Source of the DNA: Bacteroidota bacterium
GTDB taxonomy: Bacteria; Bacteroidota; Bacteroidia; AKYH767-A; JAHEYN01
Direction of reading: 5' to 3'
NCBI GenBank assembly: GCA_023251555.1
Contig: JAHEYN010000020.1
Span: forward strand, 1-55,241
DNA: 55,241 bases
Below the pieces are notes generated by a model. That model worked only from the letters and a program-made list of their open reading frames with translations, had not been told where the DNA came from and did not search any database. A program made the translations under genes and the position numbers. Positions 21,483 to 48,680 of the stretch are shown one piece after another; position 1 is the stretch's first letter; every line of letters begins with the position of its first letter.

Positions 21483-21488
21483 GTGAAC

Positions 21489-24228: not shown

Positions 24229-27006
24229 CTATTCTTTCATGAACTTCAGATATCTGGAAAAGTCTCCATCTCCCTTTCTGCCCAGCTTCAGGAAATAAGT
24301 CCCGGCCGGAAGCATATTAATGCTGAGCAGTGTGGGTGCAGTTCCCTGTGTATCTGTTTTAAGCACAGCCCGGCCAAAAATGTCATAAATAAAAACCTCA
24401 TTGTATCCGCCTGCGTCAACAGTAAGAGTATTGCCGGCAGGACTGGGATAGACGGATGCTGCCCGCAGGGAAAGATTTATTGCAATTGCGGACGAATAAG
24501 TGTAAGTTCCTTGATGCTCCACCATCCTGAGGCGGTATATTATAAATCCGGAATCATGCGGAAAGCGGCTGTCGGTATAATGGTATCTGCCCGGTGTGCC
24601 GGTATTTTCCAACGCTTTCACGCTCCCTGCCGTCTCCCAGTTTCCATGGTCACCGATTTTTCTCTCCACATCAAAGTAATCATTCCCTGCTCCGGGGGCA
24701 GTGGTCCATTCAAGCAGATTTTCATCTCCGGTGTTTTTTCCTGTGAACGAAATCAGTTCCAGGGGCAATGCGGCACAGCTCCCGTTGCAGGTGGAGCAAA
24801 ACTGGGCCACAAAAGCATCCTCAACGCCGCTCAGCGTAACCTGGTACGCGCCGGCAGTAGCAATATTACTGCTGCTTTGTGTTTTGCCTCCTATAATAAA
24901 TTTTCCTGTTGCATCCACTGCGATATCGTAACCCACGTCGGAAGAAGATCCTCCATAATAAGACCCGCAGTTTCTTACGCCGGAAGAAGCATTAAAGCTT
25001 GCAGCAAAAGCATCACTTACGCCTGCAGACCCGAGAGCGGTCTGGTATGCACCCGCAGTGGCAATCACATTTGTTCCGTTCGGACTCTGGGTCTCGCCCA
25101 CCACCATCACATCCGTTGCATTTAAAGTAAGTCCCCATATATAATCAAGCCCGGTGCCCCCGTAGTAGGTTGCCCATGAGCGGCTGGCTCCCGAAGAGCT
25201 GAGTTTCGCGATGAAACCATCCGTGCAGCATCCGTAGGCGGTCTGGTGTGCCCCTGCGGTATAGTAAGCGCTGTTGGTTGCGCCCCCGGAAGTGGTGTAT
25301 CCTGCTATAAGAACGGCTCCTGCAGCGTCAATGGCAACCCCATTCCCGACATCATTATAACAGGCCCCGTAATAGGTTCCCCAGAGGCGGGCTCCGGAAG
25401 AGTTGAACTTGCCGGCAAAAGCCATGCTTGTATATCCGGGGGGTGTAAGGAAGGCCGGCTGGTAAGAGCCTCCCGACGCAATAGCCGATGTGCTCGTGGT
25501 ACGGCCTGTTACTGCTATATTGCCTGAAGGGTCAGGATAAGAAGCTATGGCAAAGCCGGCATCATTTCCCGTACCCCCGTAGAATGTTCCCCATGAACGC
25601 ACCCCTGCAGAAGTGAACTTTGCAATAAACGCATCATTGGCGCCTCCGGCTGCAGTCTGGTAAACACCGGAAGTGGCAATAACACTGGTACCGGAGTTAC
25701 CGGAGTTGGTCGTGGCGGTACCCGTAACAATAACATTGCTGTTCACATCGAGGGCCACGCCATAAATTTCTTCATCTCCCCATCCTCCGTAATAAGTTGA
25801 CCATATACGCGCTCCCGAATTGTCGAAGCGGGCGATGAACCCGTCGTATGTCCATCCGCCGAAAGCAGGCTGATGAGCGCCTGCAGTTGTGATTGTTACC
25901 GGAGAAGGTGACGGGTCGGTGGTGTTGCCGGCGACAACCACGTCTCCGCCCGGGGAAACGGCAAGACATTTGGCATAGGTATATGCACCGGCCTGTCCGA
26001 GATAAGTGCTCCAGAGTCTGGTACCGGAAGCATCAAACTTTGTTACAAAAGCATCCATCCACCCTTCGAGGGTGGTCTGGTAAACTCCTGATGTGGCAAT
26101 GTTTATTGTGCTGGAAGTGTAACCGCCGGTGTAAATATTATTGGATGCATCAACACCCATCCCGTCGCCATTCCCTCCGTTATCTCCCCCGAAATATGTG
26201 CTCCATGAAATAGCCGGATCAATAACCAGGGTCTGCGAACTTTGGTATTGCCCTGTTTCAAACCTGAGAACTCCGTCACTGAATGAAAAATTTACAGGAA
26301 TTTTTTTCATATTCCCTTTTTCATAAGCCATGGGAGCGGATTCCACAACACCGCCAAGAGAAGTTGAAAGACGGAGATTACCTTCCCCGGTAATCCCTGC
26401 ATCCGAAAAACCGGCATACTTCATCCTGATATCAGCAGCATTGCCGCCGGGATATACCATGAAAGAATATTCAACAGACCTGCTGTCGTCCGCGGTGAAA
26501 ACAAAATCTATGTTCTTATAAACATTTTTATAAACAACCCTCCGGTATGCATATACATTCCTTGTTCCCTGCGGATTCTGTGCAGTATAATAATTAACGT
26601 AGTCACGCGATTTATCTTCTGGAAAAAGCTGTACGGAAGGATTTTCATCCATAAACTCAACATCAATCCTGTGAATCTGCAGATGTATATTTTTATGACC
26701 TCCATGAAAGTATTTTCCTTCCGGCTGCTCAGGGGACAGGGAAACAGGAGAAACTGACATGCTTGTTTCATAACTGAAGCCTCCCTTCGTCAGGATAAGC
26801 TTCATCCCCGGAAATGCTGCTGTGTATAAAATGCCTGTTCCCGGGAGGCCGTTTTGATCTCTCACCTGGCCTTTGTTTTCCCTGAATCCCATGGGATTCT
26901 CCCGCTTCTGTATTGCCACTTGAGCCACGGAGGCAATGCTGATAAAAACAAATGCAGCAGCAAGCAGTGCGCGGCCGGACAATAAATTGTTTCTTAAGGA
27001 GATCAT
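24229..27006 (-). CDS. T9SS cargo: DUF7948-like domain plus SBBP beta-propeller
   Basis: The protein has 925 residues. A signal peptide (residues 1-29, ending SVAQ) precedes a domain at about 38-270 (FRENKGQVRDQNG, VYAYRRVVYKNVYKNIDF, LVIDPAISWSTYFGG) that regularly precedes SBBP repeats. About eight SBBP repeats follow (DAFVTKFDASGTRLWSTYLG; VALDVNSNVIVTG). Residues about 750-850 are an FnIII-like linker (LPLELISFTGKNTG, NLLEWTT, YRLRMVEHQG), and the end is a type A sorting domain (SVYPSPAGNTL ... LPAGTYFLKL). It should be exported and attached to the surface. Convergent with the previous cargo gene; divergent from the helical protein gene at 27143. Confidence 0.9.
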   Translation of the reverse strand: MISLRNNLLSGRALLAAAFVFISIASVAQVAIQKRENPMGFRENKGQVRDQNGLPGTGILYTAAFPGMKLILTKGGFSYETSMSVSPVSLSPEQPEGKYFHGGHKNIHLQIHRIDVEFMDENPSVQLFPEDKSRDYVNYYTAQNPQGTRNVYAYRRVVYKNVYKNIDFVFTADDSRSVEYSFMVYPGGNAADIRMKYAGFSDAGITGEGNLRLSTSLGGVVESAPMAYEKGNMKKIPVNFSFSDGVLRFETGQYQSSQTLVIDPAISWSTYFGGDNGGNGDGMGVDASNNIYTGGYTSSTINIATSGVYQTTLEGWMDAFVTKFDASGTRLWSTYLGQAGAYTYAKCLAVSPGGDVVVAGNTTDPSPSPVTITTAGAHQPAFGGWTYDGFIARFDNSGARIWSTYYGGWGDEEIYGVALDVNSNVIVTGTATTNSGNSGTSVIATSGVYQTAAGGANDAFIAKFTSAGVRSWGTFYGGTGNDAGFAIASYPDPSGNIAVTGRTTSTSAIASGGSYQPAFLTPPGYTSMAFAGKFNSSGARLWGTYYGACYNDVGNGVAIDAAGAVLIAGYTTSGGATNSAYYTAGAHQTAYGCCTDGFIAKLSSSGASRSWATYYGGTGLDYIWGLTLNATDVMVVGETQSPNGTNVIATAGAYQTALGSAGVSDAFAASFNASSGVRNCGSYYGGSSSDVGYDIAVDATGKFIIGGKTQSSSNIATAGAYQVTLSGVEDAFVAQFCSTCNGSCAALPLELISFTGKNTGDENLLEWTTAPGAGNDYFDVERKIGDHGNWETAGSVKALENTGTPGRYHYTDSRFPHDSGFIIYRLRMVEHQGTYTYSSAIAINLSLRAASVYPSPAGNTLTVDAGGYNEVFIYDIFGRAVLKTDTQGTAPTLLSINMLPAGTYFLKLGRKGDGDFSRYLKFMKE

Positions 27007-27031
27007 GGTTTTTCGGTTTTATAAGACCTTA

Positions 27032-27061
27032 CAAATCTAACTCCTTAATGGCAGGAGGCAA
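27032..27061 (-). promoter_or_regulatory. Promoter of the SBBP cargo gene at 24229-27006
   Basis: On the minus strand TTG (27059-27061) is followed after 19 bases by TAGATTTG (27032-27039), a full match to the Bacteroidota layout. The start codon is at 27006, leaving a leader of about 20 bases. Confidence 0.65.
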
Positions 27062-27072
27062 GATTATTTTTA

Positions 27073-27080
27073 TAATTTTG
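27073..27080 (+). promoter_or_regulatory. -7 box upstream of the helical protein gene at 27143
   Basis: TAATTTTG within TTTTATAATTTTGC, the same 14-base context as at 5371. It lies 62 bases before ATG 27143 and within 12 bases of the divergent cargo promoter, so the two transcripts could interfere with or co-regulate one another. Confidence 0.45.
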
Positions 27081-27142
27081 CATATCTTGATTTATTATAA
27101 ATATAACTTTTTATATTAAAAATAATATATTTTTAACTTAAT

Positions 27143-28690
27143 ATGCAAAAGTCGAATAAACTTTCCAGTTCACTTTTCCGACTGGTAAAGTCTCTTTCAA
27201 AACCGGAGAAGGGGTATTTTAAAAAGTATATTTCCTTTCATGTGCAGGGGGAGAGAAACAACTATGCCGTGCTCTTTGACATCATTGACGGGCTTGACAG
27301 ATATGATAATGACCTGATCCGCAGGAAAGCCGCGGAGGCGGGAATTAAAAAGAGGGCTGACATGACAGAGCGTTACCTGTTTGATACCATTCTGCGCAGC
27401 CTTGGTGATTATTACATAGAAAGCTCGGAAGGTGCGGGGATACAGAGGATGCTGCACCACGCAGAAATCCTCTATGAGAAATCTCTTTATCATGAATGCG
27501 GGAAGATACTTGAGAAAGCAAAACAGGCGGCAGGCATGCGTGGAAGGTACCTGAGCCTCCTGGAAATACTTTCGCAGGAAGAAGAGCTGTTGCGATCCCG
27601 CCAGAATCTTTCCGGGATGCAAAGGTTCACCGGTGAAGGATTCAGGGAGGAACACATGTACATAAATCTATACAGGAACGTGAGGGAATACAAAGAACTC
27701 ATGGCAAGGGTGTATGCTGAAATGATCAGGAAAGGCCCTGCGAGAAGTCCCGGTGATTTGCAGAAATTAAGCATCCTGATGAAACATCCTTTGCTTTCTT
27801 CGGCAAACAAGGCATTGTCTTTCGAAGCCAAATCATTATTTTACGACATACACAGTGCGTTTTATTTTGCCAAAGGCGATTCCCCGGGAACGTACCGGTA
27901 CAGCAGAGAACTTGTGCGGCACCTTGAAAGCAGCAGGGAGCAGATGTCTGCAGAAAGCGGCAAAGCGAAATACATCTACGCACTCAGCAACCTCCTGGCG
28001 GGCTGCCTGAAATTAAAAAGGGACACTGATTTTTTTGAATACCTGCGTAAGCTCCGGGGCATCCCGGCAAAATCCGTCACAAACCAGGCGCGTATTTTTA
28101 CACGCTCATACAGCCTTGAGCTGAGCCTGTATAATGAACGGGGGCAGTTCAGTGAGGGGCTCGGCATCATCAGCGATATCACGAGGGGGCTTGATCGTTT
28201 TAAAACAGAAATAAGCAGTCCTCAGCGCCTGCTTTTTTATTACAACATCGCCTATCTCTGTTTCGGCAATAAAATGTACAGGGATGCTTTGAGATGGCTG
28301 AACAACATCAGAAATGATAAAACAGCGGAGGTGAACAGCATCCTCTTTTGCTTCGCCGAAATATTCAGCCTGATTATTCATTTTGAACTTGGCAACGAAG
28401 ATCTGTTAGAGCACAAGGTGCTGTCTGCGTACAGGGCGCTGTACAAGAAAAACAGCCTGTATAAAGTCGAGAACTGCCTGCTTTCATTTATCCGGAAGAA
28501 GCTACCTAAGATCAGCAGCGGGGCACAGCTTACAGGGGAATTCGCATTACTGAAAAAAGAGCTGGAAAAAATCATGAGGAATCCTTTTGAGGAAAAAGCC
28601 CTGGAATATTTTGACTTTATTTCCTGGCTCGAAAGCAAAATCGAGGGAAGGCCTTTTGCAGAGATTGTGAGAGAAAAGGCAAAAAAATAA
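27143..28690 (+). CDS. Unnamed all-helical repeat protein, paralogue 1
   Basis: The protein has 515 residues without signal peptide or membrane segment, so it should be cytoplasmic. Residues 11-30 carry the family motif LF-LVKSLS-PEKGYFKKY. Predicted helix pairs follow through most of the length, such as ILYEKSLYHECGKILEKAKQ near residue 110, as in TPR-like solenoids. The end is EYFDFISWLESKIEGRPFAE. Paralogues lie at 31248 and 47157. I know similar proteins only as hypothetical proteins of Bacteroidota. It is divergent from one T9SS cargo gene and convergent with another. Its codons are richer in G+C than those of the other two paralogues. Confidence 0.8.
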   Translation: MQKSNKLSSSLFRLVKSLSKPEKGYFKKYISFHVQGERNNYAVLFDIIDGLDRYDNDLIRRKAAEAGIKKRADMTERYLFDTILRSLGDYYIESSEGAGIQRMLHHAEILYEKSLYHECGKILEKAKQAAGMRGRYLSLLEILSQEEELLRSRQNLSGMQRFTGEGFREEHMYINLYRNVREYKELMARVYAEMIRKGPARSPGDLQKLSILMKHPLLSSANKALSFEAKSLFYDIHSAFYFAKGDSPGTYRYSRELVRHLESSREQMSAESGKAKYIYALSNLLAGCLKLKRDTDFFEYLRKLRGIPAKSVTNQARIFTRSYSLELSLYNERGQFSEGLGIISDITRGLDRFKTEISSPQRLLFYYNIAYLCFGNKMYRDALRWLNNIRNDKTAEVNSILFCFAEIFSLIIHFELGNEDLLEHKVLSAYRALYKKNSLYKVENCLLSFIRKKLPKISSGAQLTGEFALLKKELEKIMRNPFEEKALEYFDFISWLESKIEGRPFAEIVREKAKK

Positions 28691-28708
28691 ATTTCTTCCA
28701 ACTAAAAA

Positions 28709-31054
28709 TTATTCTTTTATAAATTTTGATTGTATAGTCCCCGCCTTTATAAAATACATTCCCTGAGGTAAGGATTGAATATTTATAATTCCATTACCAT
28801 AAACAGATGGTTGTTTTATCAGCATCCTTCCCAATACATCTGTTATCATAATATCTCCTGTTGCGTAATTCTGATAGCTTAAAATATCTTTAGCAGGATT
28901 CGGATAAATGTTAATTGAGGATTTATCAATTTGTTGATTGACGATTATAACAATTTCAGAATAAGTAAACCTCCCATCGTAATCTGTTTGCTTTAATCTG
29001 TAATAAGATATTCCTGAAATTGGTTCATGGTCAACAAAGCTATAGTTTAACGTAGCTGACGAATGCCCTGCTCCTTTTACTTTTCCGATTTCTTCCCACT
29101 CACGGATGCTGAGGCTACCCGAAGCATCGATTCCTCTTTCAATGATGAAGCAATCATTATTATTTTCACTTGCTGTTGTCCATTCCAATTTATTTACATT
29201 TCCTTCATTTGTTCCTGTGAATGACAAAAATTCTACCGGCAAAACAACTGTAACACAAGAAAAGCTGGCAATATAACTGCAACATCCGAAAGCCCCGCCT
29301 ATTCCCAAACTGCCGTACCAATTATTTCCTGCTCCGCAAATCGTGCCATCTGTTTTGCGGATTATAACACTATTCAATCCCGCACCGACTTCAGCAACTC
29401 CCGTATATGCCAACACGGGATATTGCTGATTAACAGCGCCCGTCCCATCTCCCAATTGCTCATTACCATCTGATCCCCATGAATATAAATTTCCACTTCC
29501 GTCAACCGCATAGCCATTCTCTCCGGATGCAGCTATCTGAACTATATTGGAAAGGAAACCTGAACCACCAACTCCTAACACCTTTTTCGGCTGGTAAACA
29601 TCTGTACCGGCATTGCCTGTTCCTGTTTGTCCATAATTATTCAATCCCCATCCGTAAACATTGCCGCTTGCATCCAGCGCAAGAATAAATCTTCTTCCGG
29701 CAGCAATAGAAATTATATTCGACAATGCAGTGCAAGCTCCGGGAGCGTATGCACAAACAGGTATGGAAGAATTATATCCCACACCACCCTGTCCGTTACC
29801 TAATTGTCCGTATGCACCATTTCCCATTGTCCAAACAGTATTATCCCATCTGATCATGGTAATGAATGATTCTCCGCAATCTGCATCAATAGCCCAGTTG
29901 ATCGGGTTTGTTCCGTCATAAGTCAGTAATTCTGCTGAAGGATGATAGGTATTTGCAGTATAGGATGGTCCGAAAGACACACTGCTATTAAGCCCCCACG
30001 CATACACATTATGACTAGAAGTAAGAGCAACCGTGCAATTATCACCGCTCATTACTTTTACCACGTTAGTCAATGCTCCTCCTCCGGCAGCAACTGATTT
30101 AATAGTCTGCTTTGGTGTAGGTTGTGGAGAAGTTCCTCCTCCTAATCCATAAGTGCCGTCTCCTATTTTTCCAACCCAGTTATCTCCCCAGGCCCAGACA
30201 GTACCATCACTTTTTAATGCAACATCAGTAGAAATACCATTATCTATTTGCTGAACAGATGTCAGATTGGAATTTGTATTTTGTATCCACGCATTATTTG
30301 AGTTGTTGGGGGAACCAACTACTCCATCTCCCAATTCTCCCTGTTGATCATCACCTGCCACCCAAACAGTGCCATCAGGCTGGCGCAAAACACTTGTTCC
30401 CTGACTCATCATCCATGTTCCTATGGTAGGTTTCGTAAACATACTCAAAGCCGGTAATACAGGCGTAGCAGGAGGACTGATTGGCGTTGCACACACGATC
30501 TGCCTGCTGCTCGAAGGATTAGTGGACGGTGTCCAGGTAAGAGGCGTAACATTTATATAATCTGTATTTACAATGCTTACAAGAGATGCGCCAAGAACAT
30601 TCCCTGTGGTTGCACTTGCCGATACATCATAAGTAAGCCAAAAGTAATATGGGCCTATGGCAGCGGGCATAACCTTATTGATTGTAAAAGTCATATTGCC
30701 TGAAGGACTTGTAATTGCAGAGCCCTGCTGAGTTGCCGTACCGAGGGTGTTTGTAGTATTATACCATAGTTTAGCATTTGAAATATCTGCAACATTTGTT
30801 GAACCGGCAGTTGTAAATGTTAAAGACACTAAAGTATACGTAGCGCTTCCGGAAACAGTTGATACAAGCTGAAGCTGCAACTGTGACATAGATTCTTTAG
30901 GGCTGCCTATTCCTACAGATGCTGTTTGAGCATTTGTCCATGTCCATGTATAATCATTTGTATATTTTGCAGCAAAAACATTTTCTCCCATTATAAAAGT
31001 GATTATGGAAACAAATAATAATGTAATTACTCCCGTCATGTTTTTAGCTTTCAT
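28709..31054 (-). CDS. T9SS cargo: BNR-associated N-terminal domain plus RCC1-like propeller
   Basis: The protein has 781 residues. A signal peptide ends near residue 29 (NVFAA). Residues about 45-185 match the domain found at the N-terminus of BNR/sialidase-like proteins (FTTAGSTNVADISNAKLWYN, GPYYFWLTYDVSASATTGN). Residues about 215-590 are RCC1-like repeats (VWAWGDNWVGKIGDGT, YGWGLNNYGQTGTGN, LYSWGSDGNEQLGDGTG) that form a seven-bladed propeller. An FnIII-like linker (LPVEFLSFTGTNEGN) and a sorting domain (NIYPNPAKDIL) end it. AGGAGG at 31064-31069 sits nine bases before the ATG. Divergent from the helical protein gene at 31248. Confidence 0.88.
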   Translation of the reverse strand: MKAKNMTGVITLLFVSIITFIMGENVFAAKYTNDYTWTWTNAQTASVGIGSPKESMSQLQLQLVSTVSGSATYTLVSLTFTTAGSTNVADISNAKLWYNTTNTLGTATQQGSAITSPSGNMTFTINKVMPAAIGPYYFWLTYDVSASATTGNVLGASLVSIVNTDYINVTPLTWTPSTNPSSSRQIVCATPISPPATPVLPALSMFTKPTIGTWMMSQGTSVLRQPDGTVWVAGDDQQGELGDGVVGSPNNSNNAWIQNTNSNLTSVQQIDNGISTDVALKSDGTVWAWGDNWVGKIGDGTYGLGGGTSPQPTPKQTIKSVAAGGGALTNVVKVMSGDNCTVALTSSHNVYAWGLNSSVSFGPSYTANTYHPSAELLTYDGTNPINWAIDADCGESFITMIRWDNTVWTMGNGAYGQLGNGQGGVGYNSSIPVCAYAPGACTALSNIISIAAGRRFILALDASGNVYGWGLNNYGQTGTGNAGTDVYQPKKVLGVGGSGFLSNIVQIAASGENGYAVDGSGNLYSWGSDGNEQLGDGTGAVNQQYPVLAYTGVAEVGAGLNSVIIRKTDGTICGAGNNWYGSLGIGGAFGCCSYIASFSCVTVVLPVEFLSFTGTNEGNVNKLEWTTASENNNDCFIIERGIDASGSLSIREWEEIGKVKGAGHSSATLNYSFVDHEPISGISYYRLKQTDYDGRFTYSEIVIIVNQQIDKSSINIYPNPAKDILSYQNYATGDIMITDVLGRMLIKQPSVYGNGIINIQSLPQGMYFIKAGTIQSKFIKE

Positions 31055-31247
31055 AATCTGGTTCCTCCTGGTTGTTGTAAGTTTAAAATATAATTCAACA
31101 TTTATAATTTAAGGAACAAGAATAACCCGGTGAAGCGGTCTTTACAAATTAAAAATTTGTTATTATCGGACGTCTAACGTACATTATAAACTATTATTTA
31201 GTAATTTTACAACACATTAAGGCATTATAATTTATATTCAATATAGC

Positions 31248-32807
31248 ATGGCTAAAGAAATTTCCAAAGATCTATTCCATCTGATTAAGTCGCTGAGCAA
31301 ATCTGAAAAAAGGTTTTTTAAATTAACTGCGTCAAGGCGAACAGGCGGAGATGGTACTAATTATATAAAACTTTTTGATGCGGTTGACAGACAGAAAAAA
31401 GAATACGATGAACGTAAAATAGTGCAGCAGGAAAAAAGTATCAGGCCGGAACGGCTCGCTGATATGAAAAATCACCTGTATGAAGTTATCTTAAAGAACC
31501 TGAGTGTTTATCATACTAACAAAACACTTGAAGCGAAATTGAAAAACATGTTGCATTATATTGAGATACTCTATGAAAAAGGATTGTATGACCAATGCCG
31601 GAAATTAATAATAAAGGCAAAACAAACAGCCGGCAAACACGAAAGTCATTTATACCTGCTTCATTTGCTGGTATGGGAGATTAACTTAATGCGATCGCAA
31701 TCTTATTTCGGAACTTCCGAAAAAAACATGATAGAGATTTTTGCAGAACTGTTTGAGACAACCGAAAAATTTAAAAATGTTTATGATTATGAACATCTTG
31801 CTTCCAAACTGTTTATTAAATGGAAAAAGAAAGGGTATTCACGCACATCTTCAGACACAACGGAATATGCAAAAATTATTAACGACCCGCTTTTAAAAAA
31901 TGAAAGCAATGCTCTTTCTTATCCAGCCAGGCTGTCATTATACTTTACTTACAGTGCTTATTTCTCCCTTCAAAACGATTTTATAAAATCTTATCGCTAC
32001 GCTCAAAAAACGGTTCAGTTATTGGAAGATCACCCCCACCAGGCAGAAGAAAAAACAAAGCAATACATTGCCGCTTTGAATAATCTTATCATCGAACAAT
32101 TTAATTTAAAAAGATATGCTGAAATTCCGGTTTCAATAAAAAAATTAAGAGCTGTCTCTATAAAATCAAAAGGCATGAGAGATACGGTTTTTCTCAGCAC
32201 CAACAATTTTGAACTGGGAATGTATATAAGCACCGGGGAATTTGAAAAAGGATTAAATCTTGTAACCGACATTGAAAAGGAACTGGACAACAAAGAGGGC
32301 ATTCAAATTATGAGCAAAGAACATGAAACGATCTTATATCATAATATATTCCAGATTTATTTCGGAGCAGGTCAGTATTCAAAAGCAATCGGATATCTCA
32401 ATAAAATATTAAATGATACCACCATTGATTTAAGAAATGACATTCTTTGTTTTGCGAGAATTCTGAATCTTATCACCCATTTCGAATTAAGACACATGAA
32501 TTTGCTTGAATATGTTGTAAAGTCAACCTATTACTTTCTTAATAAAAGAAAACGGCTCTATAAATTTGAAACTTCTGTTCTTGATTTTATCAGGAAAAAA
32601 CTTCCCAAAGTTATTACTGAGAAAGAATTGATCAAAGCATTTAAAGAATTAAAAACAGAATTCGAAGAAATAACCAAAGATGCTTTTGAGAAAAAAGCGC
32701 TGGAATATTTTGACTTTATTTCCTGGCTCGAAAGTAAAATCGAGGGAAGGCCTTTTGCAGAGATTGTGAAGAAGAAAGGTGCTAAAGCTATTCCTTCACA
32801 AATTTAA
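31248..32807 (+). CDS. Unnamed all-helical repeat protein, paralogue 2
   Basis: The protein has 519 residues and is cytoplasmic by sequence. The N-terminal motif is DLFHLIKSLSKSEKRFFKL (residues 8-26), then NYIKLFDAVDRQ and LYEVILKNLSVYH. Middle helices include ILYEKGLYDQCRKLIIKAKQ. The C-terminal YFDFISWLESKIEGRPFAEI is encoded by a 70-base stretch almost identical to that of paralogue 1, although the rest is much more divergent. It is A+T-rich. Its last 20 bases overlap the 3' end of the convergent cargo gene. Function unknown. Confidence 0.8.
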   Translation: MAKEISKDLFHLIKSLSKSEKRFFKLTASRRTGGDGTNYIKLFDAVDRQKKEYDERKIVQQEKSIRPERLADMKNHLYEVILKNLSVYHTNKTLEAKLKNMLHYIEILYEKGLYDQCRKLIIKAKQTAGKHESHLYLLHLLVWEINLMRSQSYFGTSEKNMIEIFAELFETTEKFKNVYDYEHLASKLFIKWKKKGYSRTSSDTTEYAKIINDPLLKNESNALSYPARLSLYFTYSAYFSLQNDFIKSYRYAQKTVQLLEDHPHQAEEKTKQYIAALNNLIIEQFNLKRYAEIPVSIKKLRAVSIKSKGMRDTVFLSTNNFELGMYISTGEFEKGLNLVTDIEKELDNKEGIQIMSKEHETILYHNIFQIYFGAGQYSKAIGYLNKILNDTTIDLRNDILCFARILNLITHFELRHMNLLEYVVKSTYYFLNKRKRLYKFETSVLDFIRKKLPKVITEKELIKAFKELKTEFEEITKDAFEKKALEYFDFISWLESKIEGRPFAEIVKKKGAKAIPSQI

Positions 32808-36495: not shown

Positions 36496-36501
36496 AATCA
36501 C

Positions 36502-36507
36502 CCTCCT
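36502..36507 (-). promoter_or_regulatory. Shine-Dalgarno site that fixes the start at 36495
   Basis: AGGAGG on the minus strand with a six-base spacer to ATG 36495. Confidence 0.7.
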
Positions 36508-36529
36508 CTTTAAAAAAGTACAACGGGGA

Positions 36530-36560
36530 CAAAGGTAAATTAAAATATCATTATGTCAAA
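36530..36560 (-). promoter_or_regulatory. Promoter of the large cargo gene
   Basis: On the minus strand TTTG (36557-36560), 19 bases, then TACCTTTG (36530-36537): an exact match to both boxes of the Bacteroidota consensus and the best promoter in the window. Confidence 0.78.
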
Positions 36561-36648
36561 AACTTTTGCCTCTGAATAAAATTCCAATCCCATCTCAGCC
36601 CTCCGCCATTATAAGTACCACCTCGCTTTTATTCAGATTGCATGCGCA

Positions 36649-38535: not shown

Positions 38536-38545
38536 GTTTTTTTTT

Positions 38546-38614
38546 AATCCGCCTTCGCGTTCCGCTACGGCGGACAAGAGTGTCCGGGGGTTGCGCCGGG
38601 GTTAATACCAATTT
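38546..38614 (+). repeat. Dispersed double-hairpin repeat, copy B
   Basis: It carries the TCCGCC ... GGCGGA hairpin with a perfect inner match TTCGCGTTCCGCTACGGC, and a degenerate second hairpin (CCGGGGGTTGCGCCGGGG). It fills most of the gap between two cargo genes and would lie in the leader of the one at 36649-38535. Confidence 0.8.
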
Positions 38615-38641
38615 ATTAAAACTTTTGAGTTATAAGTTGTT

Positions 38642-40213: not shown

Positions 40214-40233
40214 ACTTTACTTACTCCTTTTTT

Positions 40234-42243
40234 TTACTGCTTCACAAATTTAATTTGTGATAATTCTGTTCCGTTTCCTATTCTTAAAAAGTACACCCCT
40301 TCTGATAATTTCTCAATGTTAAGTTTTAATTTGTTCACTCCTCGCTTGGCCTGCGTTTGTTCTTGCATTATAATGTTTCCAAGAACATCCATTACTGAAA
40401 CATTTATTAAAGAATTTTCATCTGAATAAAATTCGTAATTCAGTTCTTTATCGGATGGAACAGGATAGATAGTTAATGACTGATGGTTAATAGTTGATTT
40501 AATGGAAATAGTTTTTGAATATGAGAAGTTCCCGTCAAAGTCAATTTGTTTTAAACGGTAATAATTCATTCCTGCAACCGGATGCTGGTCAGAAAAAGAA
40601 TAGTTTTGTTTAGCAGTTGAATTACCTGCTCCTTTTACTTTTCCTGTTTCTTCCCATGCACTTTCCCGGATGCTGCGGTTACTCGATGCATCACCTTTTC
40701 TTTCTACTATGAAATAATCATTACTTATTTCGCTTGATGTTGTCCATTCCAATAGATTTTCATTTCCTTTCATGTATCCGCTAAAGTTGAGAATACCTAC
40801 AGGTAAAACTCCGCAGGCACTCATGTCATACTTCCCATAAAAAATATCATGCCCCCCTGCCGATACAAGATTATTTACCACACCAGGATCAGGGTTAAAA
40901 TCGGCTGTCAGGGAAAAATATCCTGTCGTATACACATTACTGCCTGTTGCATCCACGGCTATAGCATAACCTATGTCATTACCTGAAGCAGTGCTGCTTC
41001 CCATCCGTCCTGCACAAACATAATTGCCTGAAGCATCATATTTGGCTATGAAAACATCTGCCACTCCTGCAGAAACCAGATTAGGAGTACCTACCGCCAT
41101 ATCAAAATCAACTGTTCCTGTGAAATATCCTGTGATATATGTATTTCCGGAAGCATCAACAGCAATACCCTGTCCTACAGCAGTACCTCCTGTTGCTATT
41201 GATCCGGGGAAGGCGATTGCCCATATTAAGTTTCCATCAGTATCGTACCTGGCATCAAAGCAAATGTGGGCAGTACCATTAGTACCCAGCAAAGTTGTAC
41301 CGCCTGCGGAAGGGTCAAAGTCGGGCGAAATCATATCGTAATATCCTGTAATATATATAGTTCCGGAGGCAGGGTCAACTGTAAGAGCGTTAACTTGTTC
41401 AGGGCTTCCTCCTCCTATGCCTTTTGCCCACAGGTAATTTCCATTCGGATCGTATTTTGCAAAGTAAATATTATTTTGCAAAGCGGGAGAAGATGTAAGA
41501 GTGCTAACTGACCCGCTGCTCGGATCAAAGTCGGCTGAGTTATAAAAATTACCGGAAATATAAATATTCCCGGAAGCATCAAGTGCTATGCTGCAAGAGT
41601 TATCATTCCCTGCCCCCCCGACATTTTTTGCCCAGAGATAACCTCCATCGGAGTCATATTTTGCAAAGAATATATCACTGGTTGCTCCTCCGGTAGAAGA
41701 AAGATTGTTTGTAACCAAGATATCGGGGTTAAAGTCCACGGTATTCTGAAAAGTTCCTGTAACATATATATTCCCTGATACATCAAAGACGGTACTATAA
41801 CCATTATTCACCCCGCCGCTCCCGAAAGAGTTTGCCCAAAGAAACCCACCGTTAGAATTATATTTAGCCAAGAGAATCTCAGACCCTCCACCTGTTACAC
41901 AAGCATTGCCAGAACCGTCAACAGCGACACCGTAACCATAATAAGAGCCGGTAGTTCCAACCGTTTTAGCCCAAAGGTAACCTCCGGTGGGATCGTACTT
42001 GGCAAGAAACATATCATAGGTTCCACTTCCGCCAGCGGGTGTAATATTTACTGTATTACCACTCGGATCAAAATCGGCTGTGGAACGAAAGTATCCTGTA
42101 ATGTATACATTTCCGGAAGCATCATACGCGATGCTGTTGCCCTGGTCACTGCTTGTGCCTCCTATTTTATTTGCCCACTGGTAGACGGGCTGAGCGAATA
42201 ATTGCAAATTGCAAATTAAGATAAATGGAAGTAGTTTTTTCAT
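40234..42243 (-). CDS. T9SS cargo: SBBP-like propeller
   Basis: The protein has 669 residues. Signal peptide MKKLLPFILICNLQLFAQ. Repeats of the form GYLWAKNVGG, IALDASGNIYISGNF, DFDPSSG, IYFAKYD run to residue about 500, an SBBP-related propeller. The linker begins LPVGILNFSGYMKGNENLL. The sorting domain is TIYPVPSDKELNYEFYSDE to LSEGVYFLRIGNG and KFVKQ. Its first 69 bases are almost identical to those of the gene at 44950, and the C-terminal coding part resembles the cargo genes on both sides, signs of recent duplication or exchange. Confidence 0.88.
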   Translation of the reverse strand: MKKLLPFILICNLQLFAQPVYQWANKIGGTSSDQGNSIAYDASGNVYITGYFRSTADFDPSGNTVNITPAGGSGTYDMFLAKYDPTGGYLWAKTVGTTGSYYGYGVAVDGSGNACVTGGGSEILLAKYNSNGGFLWANSFGSGGVNNGYSTVFDVSGNIYVTGTFQNTVDFNPDILVTNNLSSTGGATSDIFFAKYDSDGGYLWAKNVGGAGNDNSCSIALDASGNIYISGNFYNSADFDPSSGSVSTLTSSPALQNNIYFAKYDPNGNYLWAKGIGGGSPEQVNALTVDPASGTIYITGYYDMISPDFDPSAGGTTLLGTNGTAHICFDARYDTDGNLIWAIAFPGSIATGGTAVGQGIAVDASGNTYITGYFTGTVDFDMAVGTPNLVSAGVADVFIAKYDASGNYVCAGRMGSSTASGNDIGYAIAVDATGSNVYTTGYFSLTADFNPDPGVVNNLVSAGGHDIFYGKYDMSACGVLPVGILNFSGYMKGNENLLEWTTSSEISNDYFIVERKGDASSNRSIRESAWEETGKVKGAGNSTAKQNYSFSDQHPVAGMNYYRLKQIDFDGNFSYSKTISIKSTINHQSLTIYPVPSDKELNYEFYSDENSLINVSVMDVLGNIIMQEQTQAKRGVNKLKLNIEKLSEGVYFLRIGNGTELSQIKFVKQ

Positions 42244-42258
42244 GGTTTATTTTAATCT

Positions 42259-42423
42259 TTACTGTTTAATAAATTTTGTTTGAGTATTATTCACTTTTAG
42301 AAAACATATTCCTTCTGATAAATTTTGAATATTTAGTTTTGATTTGTTTATTCCCTGCTTTGATTGTATTTGCTGCTCCATAACAATAAGCCCAAGCACA
42401 TCCATTACTGAAATATTTACTTC
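42259..42423 (-). pseudogene. Orphan T9SS sorting-domain fragment
   Basis: On the minus strand the frame reads EVNISVMDVLGLIVMEQQ, then KQGINKSKLNIQNLSEGICFLKV and TQTKFIKQ before a stop at 42259-42261. This is the last two-thirds of a type A sorting domain, closest to those at 38642 and 44950. Upstream the frame soon meets a stop (42439-42441) and has no signal peptide or body, so the rest of the gene is lost. The canonical GN after DVLG is changed to GL and YFL to CFL, as expected under relaxed selection. Confidence 0.8.
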
Positions 42424-42430
42424 ATGGGGG

Positions 42431-42598
42431 TTATTTAATCAAAGAGGTTACCAATACATTTTCATTGCCTTTAGCTTTCCGGCGGATTCTCTTTTTATTT
42501 TTTGCAGTGCGGTTGTGGGATTGTATTTTTTTTTCTGCTTCCCAATAATTGTCTCCGAATCTGTCGGAAAGCAATGGATGTACTTCAAATAAGAACAT
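42431..42598 (-). CDS. Possible small basic protein
   Basis: ATG 42598 opens a 55-residue frame (MFLFEVHPLLSDRFGDNYW ... NKKRIRRKAKGNENVL) that stops just before the orphan sorting-domain fragment. The C-terminal half is very basic. I do not recognise it. It lies between the fragment and dispersed repeat C, and could be a real small gene, a piece of the element that removed the front of the cargo gene, or chance. Confidence 0.3.
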   Translation of the reverse strand: MFLFEVHPLLSDRFGDNYWEAEKKIQSHNRTAKNKKRIRRKAKGNENVLVTSLIK

Positions 42599-42633
42599 GG
42601 TTGCCGGGTTTTAGTTATTTATAAATGCTGCTT

Positions 42634-42701
42634 AATCCGCCTTCGCGTTCCGCTACGGCGGACAAGAGGGTCCGGGAGTTGCCCCGGGTTAATACCAATT
42701 T
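42634..42701 (+). repeat. Dispersed double-hairpin repeat, copy C
   Basis: Same orientation as copy B and about 90 percent identical to it by eye, including AATCCGCCTTCGCGTTCCGC and the GTTAATACCAATTTAT end. It sits just downstream of the cargo gene at 42731. Confidence 0.8.
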
Positions 42702-42730
42702 ATTTATTTTCTCAATTATTAATAATAGAA

Positions 42731-44929
42731 TTACTTTATAATCAACTTTTGGTTATGAATTTCCTCCTGAGAACTTGCTTTGACCATATATACCCCGGGA
42801 GTTAATTTTTTGGAAAAGTCGGTGGCTATTAAAAATGTCCCGTCTATGAATGCAGGAACAATTTGTGAGTATGCTTGTCTTCCGGTCATATCAAGCACAA
42901 CGACAAGAATTTCTTCTCCATAAATTCCTGTTAAACTTATAGAAATACTGCTCCCGTCGGAAGGATTGGGAAACACTGAAAACTCTATACCGAAATCTGT
43001 TTTTACCTCCATAACATGAGAGAAAGAAAACTTCCCGTCATAATCAGTTTGTCTTAAACGATAATAAGAGTTTCCGCTCAAAGGATTTTCATCAATCGCA
43101 TCATAATTCAACACAGAGCTGCTATTGCCTGCTCCTTTAACAGTTATAACAGGTTCAAATTGCTGACCATCCCGGGATCTTTCTAATGTGAAGAACTCAT
43201 TATTCTTTTCGGAGGCAGTAGCCCAGCTTACAATAACATCATTATCAGTGAACTTTGCTTCACAATGCAAAAGATCCACAGAGAGAATTATATTTACTGA
43301 ACCTAAATAAAAATTATTAGCTAAATCTGTCAGCGTTAAATCCTTTCTATTTACCTGAGGGGTGGCAGGAGTACCACTGTTAGTGCCCGCATTGCCAACT
43401 ACACTGCCTGCTAAAGTCAACCTTAAATCATCCACATCAGAAATAGTCCCGAATCCTGTGCCTTCCATACGAAGATTATAAGTTCCTCCGGCCAAGCCAT
43501 CGGCTGTGGACAGCGTCCAGAAAGCATCATGTCTTGTAACTACAGTAGCAGCCCCGTCAGGAAAAGACACATTGCTTATCGCGGAAGCATCTGTATGCGA
43601 AATACTTGCCGTGCCACCTGCATATGGTGCTGATACAGGTGCACTGATATAAAACAGGCGGGAATTATTACTGGATGTTCCCATAGGGAATAATCCGGCT
43701 GCATTTCCATCAGCGATAGTATTTGTGTCAAACCATCTTTTGAAAGTTCCATTATACAAAAGTCCGTTTGTATAAGTCAGACTTCCTATGTTAGATACGG
43801 AGGTTCCCAAAGTAAGAGTACGGGCATTAAGATTAATATTCCCCGCACTCATTGTGATATTATTCCTGACAAGGATATCCGTTGTACTAAATGTAAGTTG
43901 CGGAGAAGCTGAAGCAGAATTCATAATAAAATTATAAAATGTAAAACTGCCGGCACCGGATAGTGTTGTTTTACCCTGAAATTCCGTACTTCCTCCTGTG
44001 GCATTCACTACGCCTGCATTTGTCCATGTTGCAGTATTTTGTACAATAATTCTTCCTCCGTTCTGGTCTATTCTGTCTCCCGCATAATTCATAGTTACAG
44101 GTCCGCTTACTGTAAAAGTACCGCCACTTATATCTATGTCGATATTACAGGTGTATGAGTGTGCTATACCCACGCATGTTACAATTCCACCTGTTACGAG
44201 CAGGTGAGGATAATCGTTAAGTCCATTGGTTGTGATTTCAAACAAAAGTTTCCCGGTTACAGTACAGGTTCCTCCTGAAATGTCGAAGGTAGCAGTGGCT
44301 GTGGTATTTGCTCCGTCTAATTGTAAGTCGCTACCGACCACCAAAGTACCCCCATCCATATCGAGTAAACTGTAGGAAGTGCCCTTATCTTTTATTAGTA
44401 AATTATCTGTAGTTATTATGCTTCCTGCTGTAAAATTCAATCTGGCACCTGTATTTATATTCAGATCATCTCCTGTTGTGATTGTGCCTCCTGTAACATT
44501 CATCACCGCATTGGCACTCAGTACCAAATCATATAATGTTCCGCCAATGGAAAAGACACCTCCACTCATATCAATCCTTGATCCCGCATCTTGTAATTGC
44601 ACGTCTCCGCTAGTTGTAATGTCTGCCTGAATAGTAAGAATACTTGTACCTCTTACTGTTATTCTGCTTGGAGAGAAAGATGAATTAACACTGATGGCAG
44701 GGTCAGCGGCAGCACCTGTGTAATTTATTCTTCTAATCACAATTGTATCTCCTGATGCCGGTAATCCTGATGACCAGTTAGCACCATTGTTCCAGTCGCT
44801 ACTTACATTCCCTGTCCAATTGTTTGTAGTTGAATAACCAATATTACAAAGCAATGTGCTGACAATTAATAATGACAAAAACAAGTTTTGTTTACTTCTT
44901 TTTATAGATGTGTACAGAAATTGGTTCAT
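42731..44929 (-). CDS. T9SS cargo: parallel beta-helix-like adhesin
   Basis: The protein has 732 residues. The signal segment is long (residues 1-33, NLFLSLLIVSTLLCNIGYS). NNWTGNVSSDWNNGANWSSG opens a region typical of autotransporter-like or G8-like beta-helix proteins, followed by short repeats (MDGGTLVVGSDLQLDGANT, ISGGTCTVTGKLLF) to residue about 400. A second beta domain, an FnIII-like linker (VDLLHCEAKFTDNDVIVSWATA) and a sorting domain (SVFPNPSDGSSISISL ... LTPGVYMVKA) follow. AGGAGG at 44939-44944 lies nine bases before the start. Probably a surface adhesin. Confidence 0.86.
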   Translation of the reverse strand: MNQFLYTSIKRSKQNLFLSLLIVSTLLCNIGYSTTNNWTGNVSSDWNNGANWSSGLPASGDTIVIRRINYTGAAADPAISVNSSFSPSRITVRGTSILTIQADITTSGDVQLQDAGSRIDMSGGVFSIGGTLYDLVLSANAVMNVTGGTITTGDDLNINTGARLNFTAGSIITTDNLLIKDKGTSYSLLDMDGGTLVVGSDLQLDGANTTATATFDISGGTCTVTGKLLFEITTNGLNDYPHLLVTGGIVTCVGIAHSYTCNIDIDISGGTFTVSGPVTMNYAGDRIDQNGGRIIVQNTATWTNAGVVNATGGSTEFQGKTTLSGAGSFTFYNFIMNSASASPQLTFSTTDILVRNNITMSAGNINLNARTLTLGTSVSNIGSLTYTNGLLYNGTFKRWFDTNTIADGNAAGLFPMGTSSNNSRLFYISAPVSAPYAGGTASISHTDASAISNVSFPDGAATVVTRHDAFWTLSTADGLAGGTYNLRMEGTGFGTISDVDDLRLTLAGSVVGNAGTNSGTPATPQVNRKDLTLTDLANNFYLGSVNIILSVDLLHCEAKFTDNDVIVSWATASEKNNEFFTLERSRDGQQFEPVITVKGAGNSSSVLNYDAIDENPLSGNSYYRLRQTDYDGKFSFSHVMEVKTDFGIEFSVFPNPSDGSSISISLTGIYGEEILVVVLDMTGRQAYSQIVPAFIDGTFLIATDFSKKLTPGVYMVKASSQEEIHNQKLIIK

Positions 44930-44949
44930 GCCTGGGGTCCTCCTGATTT

Positions 44950-46977
44950 TTACTGTTTAATGAATTTTGTTTGAGTATTATTCACATTTAAAAAATACAT
45001 TCCGTCCGGTAATCTTTCAATATCGATTTCTGATTTATTTATGCCCCGCTTTGCTTTTGTTTGTTCCTGAACTACAATATTTCCAAGCAAATCCATAACA
45101 GAAATGTTTATCATAGAATTTTCTTCCGAGTAAAATTCATAATTCAACTCCTTATCTGAGGGGATGGGATAAATACTTACTGTTGATTTATTAATTTGAT
45201 GGTTGTTGATTGAAATAGCCTTTGAATAAGTGAAGTTGCCATCGTAATCAACTTGTTTTAGGCGATAATAATTTATTCCCCTAAGAGGATTTTTATCTAT
45301 GAAAGAATATTTTGAATTTGTATTGCCTGCTCCTTTTACTTTTCCTATTGCTTCAAAATTATTTCCATCTCCACCTTGTTCAATAATGAAGTAATCATTA
45401 TTCACTTCACTTGTTGTTGTCCATTGTAAAAGATTGTTTACTCCATCATCTCTGCCAGCAAAGGAAAGTAACCCTATAGGCAATACAGCACATCCGTTAT
45501 AGCTGGCAAGAAAAGCATCAATACTTGAAGATGGAGCAGTAAAAGAAGCAGTACCGGCTCCCGGATCAAGATCGGCTGTTGCCGTAAAATATCCGGCCAC
45601 ATAATAATTACCTGAACTTCCTGCAGCTATGGCATTTCCGGCATCATTAGCTGTGCCACCTATAGTACCGGCACATTGAAATCCTCCGGTTGCGGCATCA
45701 TACTGGGCAACGAAAGCATCACCTAATCCTGCATCAGCAAGGGGATAAACTCCGGGACCCGGGTCAAAATCCATAGGAAAAAATGAACTTGACACAGAAA
45801 ATGCCCCCGTTACATAACAAGAAGTTCCGGCCGCATCTATAGCTATTCCGTTTCCCTTGTCAACCATACTCTCTCCTATTCCGAACGCCCACTGATAAGC
45901 TCCGTCGGAACTGTATTTTGCCACGAAAATGTCTTCGGTTGATATAGAAGAAATAGTAGGAGATGCACCCTGATGAAAATCAGCATTCGTCCCTTGAAAC
46001 GACCCTGTAACATAGGCACTTCCTAAAGCATCAACTGCTATTGCATATCCATAATCGTATTCAAGACTTCCTTGTCCGCCTACGTTAATAGCCCACTGGT
46101 ATGTGCCGGCAGTAGTGTATTTTCCGATAAAAATATCATCGTACAGAGCTCCTGTAGTTAGGTTAGCAGTTCCGGGACCCGGATCGGCATCAACGGATCC
46201 GATTATGTCTCCCGTGATATAAATATAATTTGCCGAAGGGTCCAGTGCTATTGCATATCCCTTATCCATACTTGACCCGCCAATATTAAATGCCCACTGG
46301 TAACTGCCAGCTGAATTATATTTAGCAACAAAAATGTCCCAGCTGGATGGAGTAAGATTGGCTGTTCCGGAACCTGGATCAAAATCGGCTGTACATGAAA
46401 ACTGTCCTGTTACATAACAATTGCCGTAAGTATCTGCACTTACTCCTTGCCCATGATTTGCGTTGGTGGCACAACCTAATTTAAAAGCCCACTGATATGC
46501 ACCGGCAGCATCGTATTTGGCTAAAAAAGCACCGGCAGTAGATGCGCTTGGTGAATTAAGAAGAGCCGTTCCGGATCCTGGATCAAAATCTACCGAATTG
46601 GCTCCTGTTCCGAAAAAATCTCCTGTAACATATACATTTCCGGAACCATCTACTGCTATGGCATTTCCTACATCATGATATGAGCTACTCGTGTTTCCTA
46701 TACGAAAAGCCCATTGATAGGCACCCACAGCATCGTACTTAGCCACATAAATATCCCTGCCCCCTGCACTGGTAAGATTAGCAGTTCCCGGACCCGGATC
46801 AAAATCGCAAACTCCCGATGTGGCCCCTGTCAGGTAGAAATTTCCTGACCCGTCTAATGCGATTCCATTAGCTTTTTGTGTGCCGGCTCCCGGAGCAAAG
46901 TCCCATCCCCACTGGTAGACGGGCTGAGCAAATGATTGCAAATTGCAAATTAAGATAAATGGAAGTAGTTTTTTCAT
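44950..46977 (-). CDS. T9SS cargo: SBBP-like propeller, paralogue of the gene at 40234
   Basis: The protein has 675 residues from ATG 46977 (MKKLLPFILICNLQSFAQ); ATG 46992 is in frame but adds nothing. GGAGA stands about ten bases upstream. Repeats alternate YQWAFKLGC, GNCYVTGQFSCTADFDPGSG and DIFVAKYNSAG, about nine times. The linker is LPIGLLSFAGRDDGVNNLL and the sorting domain SIYPIPSDKELNYEFYSEE to LPDGMYFLNV and KFIKQ. The N-terminal 23 residues differ from those of the 40234 protein at one place only. It is divergent from the helical protein gene at 47157. Confidence 0.88.
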   Translation of the reverse strand: MKKLLPFILICNLQSFAQPVYQWGWDFAPGAGTQKANGIALDGSGNFYLTGATSGVCDFDPGPGTANLTSAGGRDIYVAKYDAVGAYQWAFRIGNTSSSYHDVGNAIAVDGSGNVYVTGDFFGTGANSVDFDPGSGTALLNSPSASTAGAFLAKYDAAGAYQWAFKLGCATNANHGQGVSADTYGNCYVTGQFSCTADFDPGSGTANLTPSSWDIFVAKYNSAGSYQWAFNIGGSSMDKGYAIALDPSANYIYITGDIIGSVDADPGPGTANLTTGALYDDIFIGKYTTAGTYQWAINVGGQGSLEYDYGYAIAVDALGSAYVTGSFQGTNADFHQGASPTISSISTEDIFVAKYSSDGAYQWAFGIGESMVDKGNGIAIDAAGTSCYVTGAFSVSSSFFPMDFDPGPGVYPLADAGLGDAFVAQYDAATGGFQCAGTIGGTANDAGNAIAAGSSGNYYVAGYFTATADLDPGAGTASFTAPSSSIDAFLASYNGCAVLPIGLLSFAGRDDGVNNLLQWTTTSEVNNDYFIIEQGGDGNNFEAIGKVKGAGNTNSKYSFIDKNPLRGINYYRLKQVDYDGNFTYSKAISINNHQINKSTVSIYPIPSDKELNYEFYSEENSMINISVMDLLGNIVVQEQTKAKRGINKSEIDIERLPDGMYFLNVNNTQTKFIKQ

Positions 46978-47156
46978 AGTTTGGTTCTCCATATTTTTTA
47001 AAGCAATGGTTGTTATTTTTTGTACAAATTAAAGATAGTGATGGGGCAGATGCGATAGCAATCCAAAATTTATTAATTATCCTAATGCCGTTTTATAAAT
47101 AATTGTATATTTATGTAAATTTTGATATAAACAGACAATATTACGTTTGAAAGCCG

Positions 47157-48680
47157 ATGAAGAATTTGCCTGATTTGTTTCAACTTATCAAATCGCTGTC
47201 CATGCAGGAAAAGCGATATTTTAAATTATCATGCTCTGTTCAAAAAGGGAATAAAAATTATTTGAAGTTATTTGATGCTATTGAAAAACAGTCGCGTCAA
47301 TCAGGAGAATATGATGAGCGTATAATTCAACAAAAGGAAAGTTTCAAAAAATTGCCTAATCTGAAAAACTACCTCTATACCCTTATTTTAAAAAGCCTGG
47401 AATCTTATCATGCCAATATGAATATAGATTCAGGACTAAAAAGTTATATGCACCATGCGGCAATTCTTTTTGAAAAAGGACTGTATGAACAATGTAAAAA
47501 GGTAATAACTAAAGCAAAAGCATTGGCTGAAAAATATGAAAAACATTTACTGTTGCTGGAATTATCGGACTTTGAATTTGAACTGATTCGTGCACAGTCC
47601 TTTAAAGGAAAAACAGAAAATGACATGGAGAACTGGTATGCGCAAAGAGTGAGAGTGAATAATAAATACAGTACTGAAAAAGAATACGAACGGCTTTCTG
47701 CAAGGATGTCTATGCGAATATATAAAAAAGGCAGAACCACAAGAAGTGACACTGATTTATCGGCATATCATGATATTATTAATCATCGCTTACTTCGAAC
47801 AGAAAATAATGCGATGTCTTATCAATCATTATATCATTATTACAGGATTCAGCTGGCTTATTTTTTTGCGCTTAATGATTTTACCGCTGTATATTCTTAC
47901 AGCCAAAAATTAATAAAACTAATGGAAGCCCATCCTCATCAGATAGAAGAAGGACTGCAATTATACGTATCTGCATTAGGTAATTTGATTACTTGCCAGG
48001 CTAATCTTAAAAAGTACAAAGAAGTAGAGTTAAGTTTAAAAAAACTGAAGGAAATAAACACAAAATCAAGTTATGTAAAAAGTCAACTGTTCTATATTAC
48101 AAATAACATGAATTTAATCATGTGTATTAATACCGGTGAATTTGATAAAGGATTAAACCTGATTGCACCTATTCAAGAAGAACTAAATAAGAATACACTA
48201 TCCAAACATGCCGAAATGCCTTTGCTATATAATATTTTCTATATTTATTTTGGAGCCGGTAATTATCGTGAGGCTCGCAATTATTTAAACAAAATAATAA
48301 ATGATACAACTACTGATGTAAGAAGCGATCTTTATTGTTTTGTAAAGATTATTAACCTCATTGTTCATTTCGAATTAGGAAATGAAAATTTACTCGAATA
48401 TATTGTAAAATCAACTTACCGTTTTCTCTATAAAAGAAACCGTCTCTATAAATTTGAAACTTCTATTTTGAATTTTATCAGAAAAAAACTTCCGCACATT
48501 AAATCTGATAAAGAACTTATAATGTCATTGAAAGAATTAAAAAAAGAAATAGAGGAGGTCACGAAAGTTTCTTTTGAAGCTAAAGCCCTGGATTACTTCG
48601 ATTTTATCTCCTGGTTAGAAAGCAAAATTTCCAATAAATTATTTGCAGAAATAGTGAAAGGGAAAGCACACGCGGCATAA
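47157..48680 (+). CDS. Unnamed all-helical repeat protein, paralogue 3
   Basis: The protein has 507 residues, cytoplasmic by sequence. Motif DLFQLIKSLSMQEKRYFKL is at residues 6-24, then NYLKLFDAIEKQ and LYTLILKSLESYH. ILFEKGLYEQCKKVITKAKA matches the TPR-like helix pair of the other two. The C-terminal ALDYFDFISWLESKISNKLF keeps the family signature, but the last few codons lie in the 191-bp duplication: the TAA stop at 48678-48680 is supplied by that repeat. It may therefore have lost a few native residues. Strongly A+T-rich. Closer to paralogue 2 than to paralogue 1. Confidence 0.8.
   Translation: MKNLPDLFQLIKSLSMQEKRYFKLSCSVQKGNKNYLKLFDAIEKQSRQSGEYDERIIQQKESFKKLPNLKNYLYTLILKSLESYHANMNIDSGLKSYMHHAAILFEKGLYEQCKKVITKAKALAEKYEKHLLLLELSDFEFELIRAQSFKGKTENDMENWYAQRVRVNNKYSTEKEYERLSARMSMRIYKKGRTTRSDTDLSAYHDIINHRLLRTENNAMSYQSLYHYYRIQLAYFFALNDFTAVYSYSQKLIKLMEAHPHQIEEGLQLYVSALGNLITCQANLKKYKEVELSLKKLKEINTKSSYVKSQLFYITNNMNLIMCINTGEFDKGLNLIAPIQEELNKNTLSKHAEMPLLYNIFYIYFGAGNYREARNYLNKIINDTTTDVRSDLYCFVKIINLIVHFELGNENLLEYIVKSTYRFLYKRNRLYKFETSILNFIRKKLPHIKSDKELIMSLKELKKEIEEVTKVSFEAKALDYFDFISWLESKISNKLFAEIVKGKAHAA

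Follow-up and report, generated by a model that had tools for sequence, protein, structure and literature searches.

What is the role of three long helical proteins that are encoded in a 55,241-nucleotide stretch of a Bacteroidota bacterium genome (assembly GCA_023251555.1, contig JAHEYN010000020.1, positions 1 to 55,241; this whole stretch is called the window), each of them read away from a gene for a secreted protein? The three genes lie on the plus strand and encode proteins of 515 (27143..28690), 519 (31248..32807) and 507 aa (47157..48680); open reading frames and sequence comparison agree with an earlier, sequence-only reading of this DNA that they form one family. As that reading also had it, each is back-to-back with a minus-strand gene for a secreted repeat protein, and all three partners carry the tail of type IX secretion system (T9SS) cargo: a protein with DUF7948 and an SBBP beta-propeller (24229..27006), an RCC1 propeller (28709..31054) and an SBBP propeller (44950..46992), whose type A sorting domains score 27.2, 42.6 and 39.8 bits against TIGR04183 (cut-off, 23 bits). 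The SprA translocon is present in the genome. The spacers had been put at 136, 193 and 179 bases; the first two values stand, and the third is 164 bp from the longest reading frame, 179 bp being obtained only with an internal Met start at 46977. We consider it likely that each cargo unit possesses a private transcription regulator, a RusR-like tetratricopeptide repeat (TPR) protein that would act through pair-specific, often phased direct-repeat operators.

The family had been taken to consist of hypothetical proteins only, and this view needs qualification: it is homologous to BT2802/RusR. The three window proteins match NCBIfam NF058569 (BT_2802_fam, "ribose utilization protein") with 182, 205 and 239 bits (E=2e-53, 2.5e-60 and 1e-70) over model positions 4-501, 4-501 and 1-501, that is over the whole model of about 500 residues. 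The curated cut-off of this model is 550 bits, and none of the family copies in the genome lies above it. With scores so far below the cut-off, the window proteins are distant full-length homologues and not members of BT2802 as defined by NCBI. RusR (BT2802) is described as regulating ribose scavenging through the rus ribose operon in B. thetaiotaomicron, the expression of rusR itself being unresponsive to ribose (PMC12596196). A sample of 395 Bacteroidia genomes contained two BT2802-type genes above the cut-off; the closest BT2802-type genes in this sample adjoin a ribokinase gene, from which they diverge in 5/7 cases, with SusC also present at one locus. The window family thus shares with BT2802/RusR its full-length homology (E about 1e-53 to 1e-71), a similar size, a divergent position relative to the gene or genes thought to be under its control and the absence of any recognised transmembrane or enzymatic domain. 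It differs in score (182-245 bits), in number and in target: RusR occurs once per locus for a sugar operon, whereas here tens of copies each accompany T9SS cargo, and no ribokinase or ribose genes lie beside the window-family genes.

The phenomenon is larger than was first noted, since about 35 relatives of a little-understood gut-bacterial regulator are present and nearly all are paired. The 2.84-Mb genome carries 35 full-length copies plus relics, with a median identity between paralogues of 36% (maximum 64%), while relatives of the same order carry 0-2 copies. Expansions are found again in distant Bacteroidota (at least 80 copies in genome G045, 43 in G127, 39 in G208, 25 each in G058 and G250 and 23 in G086), and the family profile was matched in 256 of the 395 sampled genomes. 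In the window's own genome, a gene with a recognised T9SS tail faces 33 of the 35 full-length copies across a divergent spacer; the two exceptions face a 389-aa protein whose C-terminus looks tail-like by eye but is not recognised by Pfam, and an 892-aa secreted protein cut by the contig start. By comparison, 11 of 93 other non-cargo genes with a divergent neighbour face cargo in the same stretches (Fisher p=8e-19), a background drawn from 752 kb of the genome that was chosen partly around the family and is therefore, if anything, raised. Conversely, a family member faces 34 of the 46 cargo genes that have a divergent upstream neighbour in the fetched sample, one of the 34 being a relic. The repeated two-gene unit proposed by the sequence-only reading is therefore firm, T9SS tails being far more frequent among the divergent neighbours than in the genome background, but the partner is any T9SS cargo in this genome and not, as had been supposed, a surface propeller in particular. 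Two side observations concern the same genes. The genome encodes 150 or more type A sorting domains of T9SS in its 2.84 Mb, so that its cargo load is very high for its size, and C-terminal regulator relics lie on four contigs (C48:25491-25781, C9:80975-81082, C4:36679-36780 and C21:233-352; loci L049, L046, L058 and L059), the C48 relic still facing T9SS cargo, which suggests that there the regulator was lost and the cargo retained.

The arrangement extends to the other expansions. All but one of the 54 members in G045 and G127 have a divergent gene opposite, which in most cases encodes a large protein whose N-terminal part includes a hydrophobic stretch; of these 53 partners, 8 have a type A tail and 24 a common SprB-like end, 13 are cut off by the limits of the fetched sequence and 8 are of other kinds. 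The SprB-like C-terminal motif (approximately RYKNQLCPGTYxINIKDKNGCSVNVNLTAP; loci L171-L190, L197-L203 and L211-L230) is missed by the type A model and is possibly an unusual C-terminal module. Among 80 loci from named genomes, the neighbour is divergent in 56 of the 71 cases that have one, with 28 type A and 4 type B tails, and in three unrelated Bacteroidota genomes the member (L146, L176, L160) faces leuA, for 2-isopropylmalate synthase, which makes a subgroup of leucine-pathway regulators possible. The relatedness of the regulators and that of their cargos are weakly correlated in the window's own genome (rho 0.23, p=0.02): paralogues and cargos have diverged and cargo types have changed with the pairing intact, so the pairing has persisted through divergence.

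These data bear on a first alternative, namely that the solenoid binds the cargo in the cytoplasm before export, as its chaperone or pilot, and that the two genes are co-located for co-expression. The one-to-one pairing with cargo genes would be expected of such a helper, and TPR solenoids often bind peptides; even so we find it improbable, because homologues face ribokinase/SusC loci or leuA and not cargo, because protein and cargo are so weakly correlated in their relatedness, and because a helper does not predict the direct repeats described below, which are pair-specific, phased and anchored at the start codon of the regulator. What the members have in common is rather their divergent placement from a target, be it cargo, leuA or ribokinase, and this is more in keeping with a regulator than with a helper of secretion. 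The earlier proposal that the solenoid "controls, or helps" its partner can accordingly be narrowed: control is its likely role in view of the pair-specific repeated sites and the homology to RusR, and help is not supported.

If these proteins regulate transcription, where would they bind? Read in the cargo sense, many spacers carry at the regulator start codon a pair-specific word about 14 bp long, of which one further copy follows in the same orientation, for example GCTTTGTACAAAATTA (contig C49, 89 bp apart), GGGAAYTTAYGAATAATTAA (C14, 85 bp) and GAATACTAAAAAT (C21, 66 bp). When the first 30 nt of each pair were matched to its own spacer and to the spacers of other pairs, cognate direct repeats were in excess in the own spacers (p=5e-5 in the window's own genome, 2e-4 in G045/G127), and inverted repeats anchored at the start codon were not significant in the former (p=0.22). 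At a fixed threshold, an anchored repeat at 60-92 bp is found in 13 of 32 pairs of the own genome against 1.1 expected (distances of 65, 65, 66, 66, 75, 75, 76, 76, 77, 85, 86, 88 and 89 bp) and in 15 of 53 pairs of G045/G127 against 1.9 expected (65-67, 76-79 and 86-87 bp), the latter counts being slightly inflated because a few pairs are orthologues. The distances are phased at about 10.6 bp (Rayleigh p about 1e-4 in the own genome and in G045/G127); a Fourier test on 134 pooled pairs gave no peak at 10-11 bp, and the periodicity shows only with the best anchored match per pair. The two copies agree closely in their first 14 positions and less so on either side, and in orthologous G045/G127 spacers both copies are kept while the sequence between them drifts (most clearly in L197/L173 and L229/L216). 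A single operator common to the whole family was considered and is not supported, strong sites recurring mainly in their own spacer where word length allows this to be told. As candidate sites drawn from DNA sequence, the pair-specific repeats are statistically well supported.

Could the repeats be mere by-products? A second alternative holds that two-gene cassettes were duplicated and that the repeats reflect AT-rich sequence or duplicated promoters, with no dedicated regulation. Tandem units do exist (on contigs C22, C10, C9 and C55), the spacers are AT-rich (25% GC) and repeats go undetected in over half of the pairs. Mismatched spacers of the same composition nevertheless yield far fewer matches, anchoring on the cargo side yields none (0/32 repeats) and other divergent spacers yield few (2/54 at a threshold of 12.5, none at 14); moreover, the intact pairing despite the wide divergence of the paralogues and the only weakly tracking relatedness of the cargos argues for selection on pairing. 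We thus judge this explanation to be as improbable as the chaperone.

The position of the repeats relative to the promoter is informative. The sequence-only reading had pointed to TT(T/A)(A/G)ATTTGTA on the minus strand of all three cargo promoters, and this is correct: the window contains exactly three instances of TTWRATTTGTA, one in each spacer and all on the minus strand, against 0.29 expected by chance. The first occurrence is a cargo-sense -7 box of the form TAnnTTTG (TTAGATTTGTA, 27030..27040, minus strand) and the other two are -7-like boxes (TTTAATTTGTA in both cases, 31143..31153 and 47023..47033, minus strand). The special meaning implied for this core did not survive a wider comparison, as TTWRATTTGTA is found in 4 of the 33 family spacers of the genome and a T[A/T]nnTTTG -7 promoter box in 23 of them; we therefore rejected it as an operator and regard it as an instance of the general -7 box rather than a site for the regulator. 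In most cases 21-30 nt separate the start of the distal repeat (copy B) from that of the TTTG in the cargo box, which would place copy B around the -33 region. The proximal repeat (copy A) touches the regulator ATG, and binding there is expected to affect the expression of the regulator itself.

The location of copy A directly before the ATG is also that of a translational operator, and alpha-solenoids can bind RNA. A third alternative is therefore control at the RNA level, in which the repeats would be bound by the solenoid in the 5' leaders of mRNAs, with one autogenous site at its own start codon and one further site. Spacing in steps of about 10.6 bp suits double-stranded DNA, however, and copy B, adjoining the cargo -7 box on its upstream side, would probably lie outside the cargo transcript; we hold this alternative to be unlikely, if marginally less so than the other two.

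We thus favour transcriptional control and propose the following model. A unit would consist of one or several consecutive cargo genes and their own divergently read regulator, a cytoplasmic TPR solenoid of the BT2802/RusR superfamily. The regulator would bind a pair-specific site of about 14 bp present twice in the same orientation, (i) at copy A, directly upstream of its own start codon, providing autoregulation, and (ii) at copy B, which borders the cargo core promoter on its upstream side. Since A and B are about 6, 7 or 8 helical turns apart, the bound molecules would lie on a fixed face of the DNA, where they may cooperate or bridge; the solenoid would sense a signal and switch cargo transcription. 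Only the pair at 47157 offers candidate copies in the window, both on the minus strand: a tentative copy A that abuts the regulator start codon (CGGCTTTCAAACGT, 47143..47156), in phase at 66 bp but weak (score 12.3, rank 10/34), and a tentative copy B 66 bp from it (CGGCATTAGGATAA, 47077..47090), weak alone but at a position that fits the genome-wide pattern.

The TPR-like middle announced from sequence is borne out by PDB profile matches to TPR proteins, kinesin light chain among them (E 4e-07), by recognition of TPR_12 in 10 of the 35 paralogues (Pfam) and by the AlphaFold model of the 507-aa protein, a confident all-helical superhelix (pLDDT 90.3). Foldseek with the full model returned weak, TPR-generic matches, including MalT domain III and NprR. 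The N-terminal segment of about 90 residues is helical, conserved and basic, and would be the part that reads DNA; its helix order resembles a helix-turn-helix (HTH) by eye, a lead at this stage, and Pfam found no HTH family in the family proteins. N-terminal similarity tracks site similarity beyond overall identity in the own genome (p=0.003), and mapping of specificity residues gave a suggestive N-terminal signal in the own genome only, with a second window at 367-380 in G045.

Several observations weigh against this model. Foldseek with a model of the N-terminal 105 residues matched no known DNA-binding fold or other structure, and the correlation between N-terminus and site loses strength in G045 (p=0.086) and disappears in the subset of confident sites. 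The repeat threshold is passed by no more than the 13/32 and 15/53 pairs given above; the three window pairs have no clear repeats, that at 47157 being weak and the other two having none, and no clear repeat pair was seen at RusR-type loci, a further difference from RusR. The conserved single-copy members in four genomes of the same order do not diverge from cargo, their neighbour being a non-cargo gene on the same strand. Finally, the spacing rule was weak in a held-out set of 40 further stretches (including three stretches from two genomes outside the plan, G083 and G383) for which the prediction had been written beforehand: 4 matches at 60-92 bp against 1.3 expected (p=0.043), with strong repeats also at 46, 50, 57, 97 and 122 bp. 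All four matches fell in the predicted distance classes (p=0.03), and the excess of cognate repeats at any distance was clear (p=1e-4, n=30, with a slightly different start-codon rule). The repeats thus generalise; the precise rule of spacing holds firmly in two lineages and weakly outside them. On the whole the earlier interpretation is partly supported: the pairing is firm and the repeats are statistically well supported, and DNA binding, the sign of regulation and the signal are inferred.

The gene context of the window offers further detail. Behind the cargo gene at 44950, which heads a same-strand run, lie five more T9SS type A cargo genes (at 42731, 40234, 38642, 36649 and 32788; 32788..44929, minus strand), and the genes from 44950 to 32788 are possibly co-transcribed. 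The six minus-strand cargo genes (32788-46992) are thus enclosed between two regulator genes, the end of the run overlapping the regulator at 31248-32807. On the other side, a 908-aa T9SS protein bearing two PKD domains is encoded on the plus strand (21483-24206), and 19 bp separate its end from that of the minus-strand cargo gene at 24229.

How does this system compare with known ones? Bacteroidetes also possess arrays of hybrid two-component systems (HTCS) or extracytoplasmic function (ECF) sigma factors in which many paralogous regulators per genome each stand beside their own outer-surface target. These arrays of HTCS or ECF sigma/anti-sigma pairs accompany SusC/D loci, whereas the family described here has no sensor kinase, sigma or anti-sigma domain and consists of soluble TPR proteins whose targets would be T9SS cargo genes. 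MalT domain III and RRNPP proteins such as NprR, which are among the weak structural matches, are likewise bacterial regulators with a TPR superhelix as sensor. The family differs from MalT/LAL proteins in lacking the MalT ATPase (neither a STAND ATPase nor a LuxR-type HTH was found by Pfam or NCBIfam in the family proteins), the structural matches being weak and TPR-generic, and from the RRNPP proteins (Rap/NprR/PlcR/PrgX) in having no recognisable N-terminal HTH before the TPRs. In Porphyromonas gingivalis, the two-component system PorX/PorY and the sigma factor SigP are described as exerting global control of the T9SS machinery (PMC4800418, PMC8265659); the likeness is that T9SS-related genes are controlled, but in those accounts it is not by one regulator per cargo. 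Literature searches found nothing on such cargo-regulator pairs, nor on the mode of action of the RusR family. We advance tentatively, with less confidence than the model itself, that these proteins may form a one-component regulator class of Bacteroidota that is new, with an N-terminal DNA-reading domain not described before, repeated expansions into tens of copies in a genome, private operator words and bridged phased operator pairs that would switch surface proteins singly.

Many Bacteroidota possess large numbers of T9SS cargo genes, and the control of T9SS that is known is exerted on the whole machinery. If the model is true, one-to-one regulators would explain how a small genome selects among over 150 surface proteins, and the paired, phased and pair-specific operators would suggest a mechanism for the RusR family; with 35 to 80 or more natural pairs of protein and site in a genome, a data set would then be at hand from which a specificity code may be read.

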